DNA of 64,000 bases, from contig NZ_BRVS01000007.1 in assembly GCF_026011795.1 (NCBI RefSeq), positions 124,001-188,000 on the forward strand, read 5' to 3'. Position numbers and translations under genes: made by a program. The notes under the pieces are model-generated. The model was not told where the DNA came from and did no database searches. It was given only the letters and a program-made list of their open reading frames with translations. The stretch is from Arthrobacter mangrovi (GTDB taxonomy: Bacteria; Actinomycetota; Actinomycetes; Actinomycetales; Micrococcaceae). Shown here one piece after another: positions 23,794 through 41,155 of the stretch; within the stretch, counting starts at the first letter, position 1; each line of letters starts with the position of its first letter.

Positions 23794-26283
23794 TTATGCC
23801 GGGACGATGTTGACCAGCTTGGGCGCCCGCACAATCACCGTCCGGATTCCACGGCCGTCCAAGGTCTTGATGATCTGTTCGGAGGCCAGCGCCTTCGTCT
23901 TCAGTTCCTCCTCGGTGATGTCCGCGGCAACTTCCAACCGGTCGCGCACCTTGCCCTGGACCTGGACGACGGCGGTGACGGTCGCCTGCACCAGCAAGCT
24001 TTCGTCGACCTTCGGCCAGCTGGCGTTCGCCACCGAGGGCTCGTGACCGAGCGCGGCCCAGAGGTCCTCCGCCGTGTAGGGGGCGAAGAGGCTCAGGATC
24101 ACGGCGACCGCCTCGGCGGCTTCGCGCACGGCGGGATCCGCTCCCCCGGCACCGCTGTCGATCACCTTGCGGGTGGCGTTGACCAGTTCCATCAGCCGCG
24201 CGATCACGACGTTGAACTTGTGCTGGTCCAGCAGGTCCGCGGCGTCGGCGATCGTTCGGTGGGTCACGCCGCGCAGCTTGGCGTCACCGGTGGCGGGGTC
24301 GACGTTGACGGCAGAGGTAACGTCCTGGCCCAACCGCCAGGCGCGGGCCAGGAATTTCGCGCTGCCGGACGGGGAAACATCGGCCCAGTCGACGTCGTCC
24401 TCGGGCGGCGAAGCGAACACCATGGTCAGGCGCACGGCATCCACACCGAACTTGTCCAGCTGCTCGCCGAGGTCAACTCCGTTGCCGAGCGACTTGCTCA
24501 TGGCCTTGCCGCCGTTGAGCACCTGGCCCTGGTTCAGCAGGGCGCTGAACGGCTCGTCAAAGTCGATCAGGCCCAGGTCCTTGAGCACCTTGGTGAAGAA
24601 CCGGCTGTAGAGCAGGTGCAGGATGGCGTGCTCGACGCCGCCGACGTACTGCCCGACGGGCAGCCAGCGGTTCACGGCCTCGGTGTCGAAGGGGCCCTCA
24701 GTGTAGTCCGGTGATGCGAACCGCAGGTAGTACCAGGACGAATCGACAAAGGTGTCCATCGTGTCGGTATCCCGGCGGGCGGCGCGTCCACAGCTCGGGC
24801 AGTCGACGTTGACCCAGTCCACGGCAGCGGCCAGCGGCGACGTACCCTTGGGCGACAGCGCCTCGCCGCGCAGGTCGTCCGGCAGCCTGACCGGCAGCTG
24901 GTTGTCCGGGACCGGCACCTCGCCGCATTCATCGCAGTGGATGATCGGAATCGGCGCGCCCCAGAAGCGCTGGCGGGACAGCAGCCAGTCACGCAGCCGG
25001 TAGTTCACGGCGCGCTCGCCCGTGCCGGCGGCCTCGACGATCCCGATGGCCTTGGCAATGCCCTCGGTCTTCGACAGTCCGTCCAGTTCGCCCGAATTAA
25101 CCAGGGTTCCCTCGCCGGCTGTCGCGACGCCAGTGGACGCCGGGTCCTCCTCGCCGGTCTCCAGGACCGCGCGCACGGGCAGGTCGAACGTGCGGGCGAA
25201 GTCCAGGTCGCGCTGGTCGTGCGCGGGGACCGCCATGATGGCGCCGGTGCCGTAATCCGCCAGCACGTAGTCGGCTGCCCACACCGGCAGCTTCTCGCCG
25301 TTGAGCGGATTCACCGCGTAGCGGCCCAGGAAGACGCCCGTCTTCTCGCGCTCGGTCGACTGGCGCTCGATGTCGGAGAGGGCCTTGACCTTCTCGCGGT
25401 ACTGCATCAGCGCGTCGTGCTGCTCCGCCGTGACGAGGTCCAGGGCGAGGTGGGCATCGGCCGCGACCACGAAGAAGGTGGCACCGTGCAGCGTGTCCGG
25501 ACGGGTGGTGAAGACCGTGACGTCACGCTCGGGCCGGCTGTCCGCGGCCTCGATCCGGAAGTTGACGTGCGCGCCCTCGGAACGGCCGATCCAGTTGCGC
25601 TGCATGGCCAGCACGCGCTCCGGCCAGTGGCCCTTGAGCTCCTCCATGTCGTGCAGCAGCCGGTCAGCGTAGTCGGTGATCTTGAAGTACCACTGGTTCA
25701 GGCTCTTCTTGGTCACCGTGGTCCCGCAGCGTTCGCAGGCTCCGTTGACCACCTGCTCGTTGGCCAGCACGGTCAGGTCCTTGGGGCACCAGTTCACCGG
25801 CGAGTTCTTGCGGTAGGCCAGGCCCCGCTCGTAGAACCGCAGGAAGAGCCACTGCGTCCACCGGTAGTACTCGGGGTCCGAGGTGTGCAGCCTGCGGGAC
25901 CAGTCGGCGCTGATGGCATAGCGCTTGAAAGAGGCGGCCTGGGTGTCGATGTTCGCGTACGTCCATTCCGAGGGATGGGCGTTGCGCTTAATGGCGGCGT
26001 TCTCGGCAGGGAGCCCGAAGGAGTCCCAGCCGATCGGGTGCAGGACGTCGTAGCCCTTGAGGCGCCAGTAGCGGGCAACGACGTCGCCCATGGCGAAGGC
26101 CTCGGCGTGGCCCATGTGCAGGTCGCCCGACGGGTACGGGAACATGTCCAGCACGTAGCGGCGTTCCTTGGAACCGTCGTCGACGGCGTTGAAGACGCCC
26201 AGTTCCTCCCAGACCGCGGGCCACTTGCCCTCCATCGCTGAAAAGCTGTACTCGTTCTGTTCCGTACCAGCGTGCGTACTCAC
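23794..26283 (-). CDS. leuS: Leucyl-tRNA synthetase
   Basis: Class I synthetase that charges tRNA-Leu, 829 residues. The HIGH motif is HMGH (56-59), and the KMSKS motif appears as AMSKS (about 593-597). The CP1 editing domain is present with [13 protein letters not shown]. Zinc-type cysteines occur in [21 protein letters not shown]. The start GTG 26283 ([17 protein letters not shown]) is chosen because the terminator-like hairpin and leader peptide lie upstream of it; the longer frame to 26595 runs through these. Expression is probably controlled by that leader. Confidence 0.96.
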
Positions 26284-26346
26284 GTTGCCTTGCCCTCGTC
26301 CTCTTGGTTTGCGGTGCACTTGCCGGACTGTTCCGGACACACAAAA

Positions 26347-26367
26347 GCCCCTCGACGCGGGAGGGGC
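26347..26367 (-). terminator. Attenuator hairpin before leuS
   Basis: On the minus strand GCCCCTC and GAGGGGC form a 7-bp stem with a 7-nt loop, followed at once by TTTT. It lies between the leader peptide stop (26396) and the leuS start (26283), in the position of a transcription attenuator. Confidence 0.65.
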
Positions 26368-26395
26368 GGCCGCACTGCGGATTGGAATCCGAAAA

Positions 26396-26428
26396 TCAGC
26401 GCGGCTGGCTAAGCTCAAGTGCAGACAT
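26396..26428 (-). CDS. Putative leuS leader peptide
   Basis: A 10-codon frame, [10 protein letters not shown] then TGA. Both leucines use CTT, a codon that is rare in GC-rich genes such as its neighbours, so charged tRNA supply could easily limit its translation. The 3' codons (GCCGCGC, 26405-26399) can pair with GTGCGGC (26375-26369), directly next to the terminator stem, giving a plausible alternative structure. A -10-like TAAAGT ends 6 nt before its ATG, suggesting a leaderless transcript. Inferred role: ribosome stalling when leucyl-tRNA is low would favour read-through into leuS. Confidence 0.5.
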
Positions 26429-26434
26429 AGGTCT

Positions 26435-26440
26435 ACTTTA
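26435..26440 (-). promoter_or_regulatory. Putative -10 hexamer of the leuS leader
   Basis: TAAAGT (TANNNT) on the minus strand, 6 nt before the leader ATG at 26428. No Shine-Dalgarno sequence and no clear -35. Confidence 0.45.
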
Positions 26441-26492
26441 GCGCAGATCGGGGCCCCTCCCCGCGGCGGCCGCGGCGGCCGCACCGGCACGA

Positions 26493-28007
26493 TCAGCGCA
26501 CGTCCTCGTCCACCCAGTCGAACGTCCGGGACACCGCCTTCCTCCAGAGGCGCATGCGGCGGTCCCGCTCCGCTTCCTCCATGGCCGGCTCCCACCGCCG
26601 GTCCTCGGCCCAGTTGGCCGCCAGTTCGTCCTGCCCGCGCCAGAAACCCACGGCGAGCCCGGCGGCGTAGGCGGCCCCGAGTGCCGTTGTCTCGGCGACC
26701 CGAGGCCGGACCACGGGCACGCCGAGGATGTCAGCCTGGAACTGCATCAACGCATCGTTGGCGACCATGCCGCCGTCGACCCTCAGTTCCTTCAGCGGCA
26801 CGTCGGAGTCGGCGTTGACGGCCTCCAGCACCTCCCGGGTCTGGAAGGCTGTGGCCTCCAAGGCGGCGCGCGCAATGTGCGCCTTGGTCACGAACCGGGT
26901 CAGCCCCACCAAAGCCCCCCGGGCGTCCGGGCGCCAGTACGGGGCGAACAGGCCGGAGAATGCGGGCACGAAGTAGGCCCCGCCGCTGTCCGGGACGGAG
27001 CCGGCCAGCTCCTCGGCCTCGGCGGCGGAGGCCACAATGCCCAGATTGTCGTGGAGCCAGTGGATCAGGGAACCGGCGACGGCGATCGACCCTTCCAGCG
27101 CGTAGCTCGGGGCCTGGTCGCCCAGCTGGTAAGCCACCGTGGCCAGCAGGCCGTTCGCCGACGACACAACCCGCCCGCCGGTGTTGACCAGCACGAAGCA
27201 GCCGGTGCCGTAGGTGTTCTTGGCATCGCCGGGGCCGAACGCGGCCTGGCCGAAGGCTGCGGCCTGCTGGTCGCCCAGGATGCCGGCAATCGGGACCTCG
27301 CGCAGCAGCTGGGACCCGTGGACCGTCCCGTATACCTCGGAGGATGAGCGGATCGACGGCAGCATGCCCGCCGGGATGCCGAAGGCCGCCAGGATGTCCG
27401 GCGACCAGTCGAGCGTGCGCAGGTCCATCAGCAACGTCCGGGACGCGTTCGTGACGTCGGTGGTGTGGACGCCGCCGTCGTTCCCGCCGGTGAGGTTCCA
27501 GACCACCCAGCTGTCCATGGTGCCGAACAGCAGCTCGCCCGCCTCTGCCTGCTCGCGTGCGCCGGGCACGTTGTCGAGGATCCAGCGCAGCTTGGTCCCC
27601 GCGAAGTACGGAGTCAGCGGCAGGCCGGTGATGTCCATGAACCGGTCCGGGCCCGCCCCGGCGGCGAGCTCGTCGCAGATCGCCTGCGTGCGCACATCCT
27701 GCCAGACGATCGCGTTGCTGACCGGCCGGCCGGTCGTGCGGTTCCAGACCACGGTGGTTTCGCGCTGGTTGGTCAGTCCGACCGCAGCAATGTCATGGCG
27801 GGTCAGGCTCGCGCGGGAGAGCGCGGTCCCGACAACCTCGCGCACGTTGTCCCAGATTTCGACGGCGTCGTGCTCCACCCAGCCCGCCCGCGGCAGGAGC
27901 TGGCGGTGCTCCTTTTGCCCGCTGGAGACGATGCTGCCTCCGCGGTCGAAAATAATGGCGCGGGACGACGTCGTACCCTGGTCAATGGCCAGTACGTAAC
28001 CGGGCAT
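26493..28007 (-). CDS. glpK: Glycerol kinase
   Basis: ATP-dependent phosphorylation of glycerol to sn-glycerol 3-phosphate. 504 residues, full length for the FGGY family. N-terminal ADP/glycerol motif [15 protein letters not shown] (7-21), substrate segment [17 protein letters not shown] signature region [17 protein letters not shown], and [18 protein letters not shown] near the C-terminus. Start ATG 28007 behind AAAGGTGG. No glpF or glpD is adjacent. It is divergent from the aldo/keto reductase gene (156 bp gap), and the leuS leader begins 64 bp downstream. Confidence 0.96.

Positions 28008-37867: not shown

Positions 37868-41155
<3,288 letters not shown>

Follow-up and report, generated by a model that had tools for sequence, protein, structure and literature searches.

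The leucyl-tRNA synthetase gene leuS of Arthrobacter mangrovi is preceded by a short leader frame containing leucine codons, a hairpin (P1) and a terminator stem-loop (P2) which together, as judged from sequence comparison, very probably form a ribosome-mediated transcription attenuator, with leuS induced when leucyl-tRNA is scarce. The window analysed is the whole stretch of 64,000 nucleotides, which has a G+C content of 68%, and the nearest named relatives of its leuS (among the best 80 of 588) belong to Arthrobacter and Pseudarthrobacter. An earlier note, made from the letters of the window, had placed a -10-like TAAAGT, a 10-codon frame and a 7-bp terminator stem with TTTT before leuS, and all of these were found at the positions given, as part of the following arrangement.

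26493 to 28007, same strand as leuS: FGGY-type carbohydrate kinase gene, the upstream neighbour, 52 bases before the -10 box.
26435 to 26440, minus strand: -10 hexamer TAAAGT, read in the sequence; a leaderless start is predicted at the A of the leader ATG, with 6 intervening nt.
26396 to 26428, minus strand: leader frame of 10 codons, ATG TCT GCA CTT GAG CTT AGC CAG CCG CGC TGA, predicted to be leaderless, with its ATG at 26428.
26417 to 26419, minus strand: control codon 1, CTT (Leu), 14 nt before the P1 base.
Between control codons 1 and 3, minus strand: control codon 2, here GAG (Glu).
26411 to 26413, minus strand: control codon 3, CTT (Leu), 8 nt before the P1 base.
26369 to 26405, minus strand: P1 hairpin of 9 bp, GCCGCGCTG (26405-26397) with CAGTGCGGC (26377-26369), called from folding and covariation, with the TGA stop inside it.
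26347 to 26367, minus strand: P2 terminator stem-loop of 7 bp, GCCCCTC-CCGCGTC-GAGGGGC, called from the terminator scan and covariation; the single base 26368 lies between P1 and P2.
26343 to 26346, minus strand: terminator U tract TTTT, from the sequence and the terminator scan.
23794 to 26283, minus strand: leuS, leucyl-tRNA synthetase, with a GTG start (Pfam leucyl-tRNA synthetase editing domain, E 7.7e-61).

The two marks of an amino-acid attenuator, a short frame with codons matching the controlled gene and a predicted intrinsic terminator between frame and gene, were thus both found. Within 25800-27000 the terminator scan returned one terminator-like site against 0.6 expected from shuffling, and a simple promoter scan of the same interval found no two-hexamer promoter, so that the call of a leader promoter rests on the -10 hexamer and its conservation. 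The folding energy had a z of -2.7 (3 of 200 shuffles folded equally well). CTT, which the note had considered rare in such GC-rich DNA, proved to be so, making up 0 of the 74 Leu codons of leuS and 4% of the 349 in five minus-strand ORFs. The pairing of GCCGCGC with GTGCGGC that the note described also exists, within the larger 9-bp helix of P1; its role as a possible alternative stem was not upheld, since P1 and P2 are both present in the predicted minimum-energy fold of the window and the TGA stop lies inside P1. No T-box match to Rfam was obtained in the window at the gathering score, and a search of 26200-26600 with E up to 5 gave one chance-level match, which was not a T-box. Upstream of the -10 box, GGAGGGGCC at 26452-26460 could pair with a terminator arm in read-through RNA.

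Comparison with close relatives, fixed beforehand as the check that could count against the proposal, revealed strong conservation of the frame, its Leu codons and the hairpins. The relatives' leuS loci were the best 80 of 588 named ones plus 10 genomes of the genus (its own included), and a regular-expression (regex) script that required three features, a hexamer resembling a -10 box, a short frame holding one Leu or more and a terminator, recovered the layout in 83 of 112 upstream regions. A covariance model, R1, built from 27 of the regex-found sequences (Micrococcaceae-family and Propionibacteriaceae loci), matched the window once, each of the 10 genus genomes sampled, the window's own among them, and 50 of the best 80 of 588 named leuS loci, with 17 of these 50 among its training sequences and 33 of the 63 non-training loci matched. 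Further afield, R1 matched 149 of 394 genomes and 67 of 138 genera in the class (E 0.01), 56 of 198 genomes and 31 of 73 genera in the order, and 37 of 296 genomes in the phylum (E 0.1). The element seems to have been lost, changed or carried below detection in parts of the Micrococcaceae, because the 30 loci without a match among these best 80 of 588, two of which (L064 and L080) have fewer than 75 bases upstream, include Kocuria, Rothia, Micrococcus, Nesterenkonia, Yaniella and Glutamicibacter.

Both hairpins were supported by covariation. In a MAFFT alignment of the 27 sequences, where the terminator T run is followed mostly by GTGTG, 94.7% of cells pair, both-side changes occur in 6 of 9 P1 pairs and 1 of 7 P2 pairs, and cells with such changes number 38 against 11.3 when shuffled. 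When 74 sequences were aligned to the model, a fit that leans to structure, both-side changes were found in 7 of 9 P1 pairs and 6 of 7 P2 pairs, with 129 such cells against 21.7 shuffled (0 of 500 shuffles reached this count). Five leuS loci titled Glutamicibacter or Arthrobacter (L039, L041, L044, L049 and L054) have a hairpin adjoining the terminator, a called leader with a single Leu and no R1 match, and their elements are possibly decayed or re-specified. A record titled Sporosarcina beigongshangi (L034) has a leuS and a leader resembling those of Arthrobacter (leuS at 84% identity over the query), and looks mislabelled or contaminated.

For measurement, the 83 regex-found elements and 106 R1 loci were pooled into 189 elements, 177 of them distinct. 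The R1 loci comprised 68 fetched from the phylum, class and order searches and 40 more, with L168 and L192 left out; of the 30 phylum-search loci, the classification left aside L116 and L117 (already in the set), L132 (E 1.4e-5, cut by a contig end) and L140-L145 (E 0.0065 to 0.025). Of the distinct elements, 18 had no called frame and 12 an unexpectedly placed stop codon; the other 147 served for distances (61 regex-found and 86 found by R1 alone), and 126, mostly from leuS with cimA and ilvB ones included, were used for folding.

A TAnnnT hexamer ends 6 nt (101 elements) or 7 nt (26) before the start codon among the 147, in 61 of which, the regex elements, a -10 hexamer and one Leu had been required. 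Among the 86 R1-only elements, a TAnnnT stood 4-9 nt before the called start in 72, against 0.02 of shuffles run through the same caller, which favours leaderless starts. A leaderless start is also reported for the homologous leader of S. lividans (PMC8079986). Leu, Ile or Val was found at control codon 1 in 92% of 143 elements, at control codon 2 in 90% of 147 and at control codon 3, the best conserved, in 97% of 147 (four, three and two codons before the P1-base codon, respectively), compared with 34% and 14% at the codons neighbouring the run; R1 includes the control-codon columns, and the regex set alone, which asked only for one Leu, gave 54/57, 49/61 and 57/61 at the control codons against 29/57 and 8/61 at the neighbours. 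Control codon 3 is mostly U-ending (118 CTT and 10 ATT of 147), and the first two mostly end in C or G.

Two stop arrangements dominate, with either a TAG at the P1 base (frames ending LLLS or LLLT) or a TGA inside P1 (frames ending SEPR or GPR, and SQPR in the window). Leaders vary within the genus (MSALLLS, the 10-codon leader of the window, and MFAHSLS), so that the window copy has two of the three Leu codons. As the window has CAG where its genus relatives have TAG, its leader reads on for three codons to the TGA, and since the SQPR tail is this read-on, a search for leader peptides ending in PR gave no counterpart of the leader among the best 80 of 588 named loci, only a few unrelated short frames. 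A pairing of CTGCACT with AGTGCGG inside the window's leader frame, seen by eye, was judged unconserved on inspection of relatives and discarded.

The same layout was found before other genes. Assigned by tblastn, the 106 R1 loci lie before leuS (81), a citramalate/isopropylmalate-synthase-type gene (15, of which 14 are taken as cimA) and ilvB (9), with 1 unassigned; the NCBIfam citramalate synthase model was the best for fragments of three of the 15 (E 2.7e-63 to 8e-57), the acetolactate synthase model matched fragments of two of the nine ilvB loci, and L135 reads by eye as a leuA-like gene. At leuS, the last control codon is Leu in 68/68 R1-found elements and in 57/61 regex-found ones, the other four being cases in which the script placed P1 differently; at cimA it is Ile in 11/11 elements passing the frame filter, and at ilvB Ile in three, Leu in two and Val in one (n=6). 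Read back from the TAG, 13 of 14 cimA loci gave frames such as HRIRIP, TAIIIP, SIIIIT and PALLIT (L198 was unreadable in this way). Because the layout recurs with matched codons at leuS (Leu), cimA (Ile), ilvB (Ile/Leu/Val) and once at a leuA-like gene, codon identity may be exchangeable and the geometry fixed, and for cimA the shared layout predicts control by isoleucine. The cimA-type genes preceded by Ile-codon leaders together with this hairpin and terminator are those at L182, L183, L193-L201 and L210-L212. A search for cimA in the window's own genome, run without a positive control, found none at E 1e-6.

Spacing within the element was measured across the 147 elements with a finder restricted to small P1-P2 gaps and built to keep the two hairpins separate, and with R1, itself favouring the same geometry, as the source of many of them. 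P1 begins on average 7.5 nt after the last control codon (sd 1.2) and spans 34.3 nt (sd 10.3, range 18-62), and the gap to P2, limited in size by the finder, averages 0.9 nt (sd 0.8). Because of this limit the geometry was rerun without requiring P1 on 75 distinct regex elements, in 74 of which the gap was 0-2 (0.52 in shuffles); a gap of 0-2 together with a P1 partner at the stop codon was found in 65 (0.083 in shuffles), and the 10 exceptions include the window and its two nearest relatives, with the stop inside P1, and five of Glutamicibacter type. If P1 is folded and taken as a single base, the first control codon lies 8-19 nt from P2 in 147/147 elements, against 30-71 nt unfolded, and the stop codon lies 19-64 nt from P2 (less than 27 nt in 45 of the 147). 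The corresponding values in the window are 16 nt folded, 52 unfolded, and 31 from the stop. P1 has a median length of 35 in the elements whose stop it contains (n=59), against 30 in the others (n=88; P 1.5e-6), and the distance from stop to P2 is alike for both arrangements (29 vs 33, P 0.35), these P values being too strong because the sequences are related.

The course of regulation may be pictured as follows. RNA polymerase would start at the ATG of the leaderless frame and a ribosome would translate it; with leucyl-tRNA plentiful, the ribosome would reach the stop codon and leave, P2 would fold and transcription would end before leuS, and with leucyl-tRNA scarce, the ribosome would stall on the control Leu codons and leuS would be transcribed. 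The earlier note had proposed ribosome-mediated attenuation of this kind, possibly sensing leucyl-tRNA, and the comparison backs a leader-peptide transcription attenuator; the switch between alternative pairings, with its antiterminator, was not found.

The antiterminator was sought by masked folding, in which the transcript was cut just before the 3' arm of the terminator and ribosome-covered bases were held unpaired, with nested structures only. In the E. coli controls, the terminator 5' arm was free at 0.25 (thrL), 0.40 (leuL), 0.29 (trpL) and 0.36 (hisL) when the ribosome occupied the control codons, and at 0.99, 0.99, 0.97 and 0.36 respectively when it occupied the stop, so the switch was detected in three of the four, hisL giving the same value in both states. 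For the 126 actinobacterial elements, the median was 0.85 with the ribosome on the first control codon of the run and 0.67 with it on the stop, and taking the worst of the last three control codons with footprints of 8-16 nt gave medians of 0.76 to 0.64. Between 0 and 8 of the 126 dropped by more than 0.3 relative to the stop state over these footprints (8 at 16 nt), and 33 of the 126 fell below 0.5 free at 16 nt, the folding contrast being weaker with larger footprints. In the window the values were 0.73 and 0.77 at the two Leu codons and 0.78 at the stop. Nested folding of the 126 elements, set against the four E. coli controls, thus found no competing antiterminator overlapping the terminator 5' arm and, within the limits of such folding, speaks against classical alternative pairing. 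Two candidate pairings were rejected by inspection or count: that of the P1 5' arm with the terminator 3' arm amounts by eye to at most AGCC/GGCT and is broken in TAACCGC sequences, and an upstream GAGGGGC as partner of a terminator arm was abandoned on the count of upstream complements given below.

Without a competing antiterminator, the likeliest route, to which we would give almost an even chance, is that the stalled ribosome is docked by P1 against the terminator. A ribosome stalled on the control codons would leave P1, whose base is mostly 8-14 nt further on, free to fold; folding would remove 18-62 nt and, with the far end of P1 abutting P2, bring P2 within 8-19 nt of the ribosomal A site, where a ribosome would hinder the terminator hairpin from closing. 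Once at the stop codon, a ribosome would unfold P1, would sit 19-64 nt off along the RNA, mostly too far to interfere, and on leaving would set P2 free. Docking is favoured because the folded and unfolded distances fall either side of about 27 nt, a threshold that comes from E. coli, from moving ribosomes, and depends on sequence. The E. coli terminator tR2 is reported to be repressed near a stop codon and to reach full efficiency beyond about 27 nt, with termination of about 0.8 at 18 bp in one series and 0.12 at 17 bp in another (PMC4824070). At pyrL in vitro, a trailing ribosome is reported to have cut termination from 21.5% to 9.9%, and elongation inhibitors to have suppressed this effect of the ribosome (PMC10135430); a halted ribosome is therefore not always able to block a terminator. 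More tentatively still, the elements may make up a distinct class of actinobacterial attenuator, in which a linker hairpin and not an antiterminator performs the switch by docking the starved ribosome at the terminator.

The main rival to docking, which we consider unlikely, is that P1 acts as a pro-termination or pause hairpin, holding RNA polymerase or stacking on P2 and so making termination efficient; a ribosome at the last Leu codon would then cover the base of P1, P1 would fail, termination would weaken and leuS would be switched on. In keeping with this, conservation is highest at the last control codon, and in the window a ribosome there with a 12-nt footprint covers the P1 base and abolishes P1 (probability 0.03), so that P1 could survive a ribosome at that codon only with a shorter footprint. 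The rival stays alive because the folding of P1 depends on the footprint and because the best conserved codon is the last. However, a ribosome that stalls at the earliest of the three codons it meets would leave P1 folded and termination on, and the prediction for P2 is that it folds whether or not P1 does (median probability 0.99-1.00 in three states). Pyrimidine-G steps are of a kind found at pauses, and such YG steps are common 10-12 nt after P1 (0.30-0.35 of 147), although they are also frequent at other offsets (0.20, 0.22, 0.29 and 0.26 at 9, 13, 14 and 15). A pause-site reading of this step, which is present in the loop and not sharply placed, was set aside as such and kept within the rival. 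A hairpin upstream of the terminator is also needed for L4-mediated attenuation of the E. coli S10 operon, going by the title of a paper cited in PMC8269248. A longer P1 where the stop lies inside it, with an unchanged distance from stop to P2, is what either reading needs; docking is retained as the main proposal and pro-termination as its main rival, and the sequence evidence here fits both.

Classical trp-type attenuation, with an antiterminator missed by the folding (a pseudoknot, a triplex or a protein-aided structure), we regard as improbable. Published proposals lend it weight: antiterminator hairpins were given for Streptomyces leuS by Seliverstov et al. (2005, PMC1262725), antiterminators have been proposed for the ilvB attenuators of Corynebacterium and Mycobacterium (PMC11857589, PMC13236596, PMC10272879), among them a C. 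glutamicum ilvB antiterminator next to the terminator and overlapping it by three bases, GCC (PMC11857589), and an M. tuberculosis ilvB1 pair described as mutually exclusive (PMC13236596), and a 2016 paper mentions helix chains and triplexes in attenuators (PMC4833913); the 8 elements that drop at the 16-nt footprint point the same way. Against this, the called P1 helix could be lengthened into P2 by 1 bp in 8 of the 147 elements, by 2 bp in 1 and not at all in the other 138, complements to P2 upstream of the leader show no excess (3 of 147, with 3.2 expected), and over the set the accessibility of the terminator arm does not fall at the control codons, unlike in E. coli thrL, leuL and trpL. 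That P2 is merely the ordinary intergenic terminator of the upstream kinase gene, accompanied by a chance short frame, is hardly credible, for although the kinase gene is on the same strand and 52 bases before the -10 box, the frame, spacing and both hairpins are kept before leuS across genera and the codons match the downstream gene.

A leuS attenuator is in itself not new, since such attenuators, called classical, were predicted in Streptomyces coelicolor and S. avermitilis in 2005 (Seliverstov et al., PMC1262725) and in 2021 an RNA-seq study of S. lividans reported LeuL2, a leaderless leuS leader peptide reading MRAVRLLLSEPR followed by a stop (PMC8079986); the remark of the earlier note that it knew of no description for leuS in this group therefore holds only narrowly. 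R1 matches before leuS in genomes whose leader peptide equals LeuL2, and the Streptomyces elements share with ours the site before leuS, a leaderless frame (ending LLLSEPR, and LELSQPR in the window) and a terminator with a U tract. They differ in that the 2005 description has terminator and antiterminator, whereas P1 here is compatible with the terminator, and the range now reaches many genera of the class and cimA. Our search of the literature, mostly open-access, found no account of a Micrococcaceae leuS leader, of attenuation at cimA or of any attenuator with this geometry. Further attenuator cases may be listed by Lopatovskaya et al. (2010), a paper cited in PMC4833913 and PMC8269248.

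With the E. coli trp, his, thr and leu attenuators the element shares a short frame rich in cognate codons and a terminator before the gene, and it differs from them in having no antiterminator that could be found, in being leaderless and in placing three control codons at a fixed distance from a linker hairpin. In E. coli pyrBI (pyrL) a nearby ribosome is described as preventing the terminator from folding (PMC10135430), which is the block proposed here and one that the measured distances would fit; pyrL senses UTP through polymerase pausing, whereas here the ribosome would park at amino-acid codons and be brought near by the hairpin. The C. glutamicum ilvBNC attenuator (PMC11857589) and the ilvB-II motif (PMC10272879) resemble it in their leader peptide, their hairpin directly before the terminator and their link to branched-chain amino acids, but are reported with an antiterminator overlapping the terminator (GCC in C. 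glutamicum), a P1 extension being absent here in 138 of 147 elements. The actinobacterial LEU element before leuA also has a run of Leu codons before a leucine gene, but is described as a pseudoknot in which the Leu codons pair with the leuA Shine-Dalgarno box (PMC1262725), in contrast to the terminator and the consensus fold of two plain hairpins found here. As reported in PMC13236596, changing the control codons LVVI of M. tuberculosis ilvB1 to AAAA gave low expression and no response, which directly supports the sensing of codons by an attenuator related to this one; changes to candidate leader codons of S. coelicolor ilvB, as related in PMC1262725, had no effect on regulation, and this counts against the proposal.

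Matches in 67 of 138 sampled genera suggest that leader-peptide control of leuS is common in the actinobacterial class and not a speciality of Streptomyces. If the docking reading of the geometry is true, the element would unite codon sensing and ribosome proximity, the two textbook concepts of attenuation, by means of a hairpin that removes distance, and would offer a compact, exchangeable sensor for high-GC bacteria.

The ilvB gene of the window's own genome (L237, ilvB match at 39982) is preceded by a frame rich in branched-chain amino acids, MQIVVVVVLIERVA followed by a stop, with a possible hairpin GCGCGTG/CACGCGC at the end of the frame and a terminator-like stem soon afterwards, and this leader is a candidate attenuator as read from these letters. 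This leader gave no R1 match and its terminator-like stem was not listed by the terminator scan; in the unconstrained minimum-energy fold the leader codons pair with the 3' side, the GCGCGTG/CACGCGC hairpin is absent and the terminator stem is present. At two further loci (L136 and L137), a leader of the leuS-element kind lies before a gene for a small uncharacterised protein (107 and 91 aa, with no NCBIfam match for that of L136), which itself lies before ilvB.
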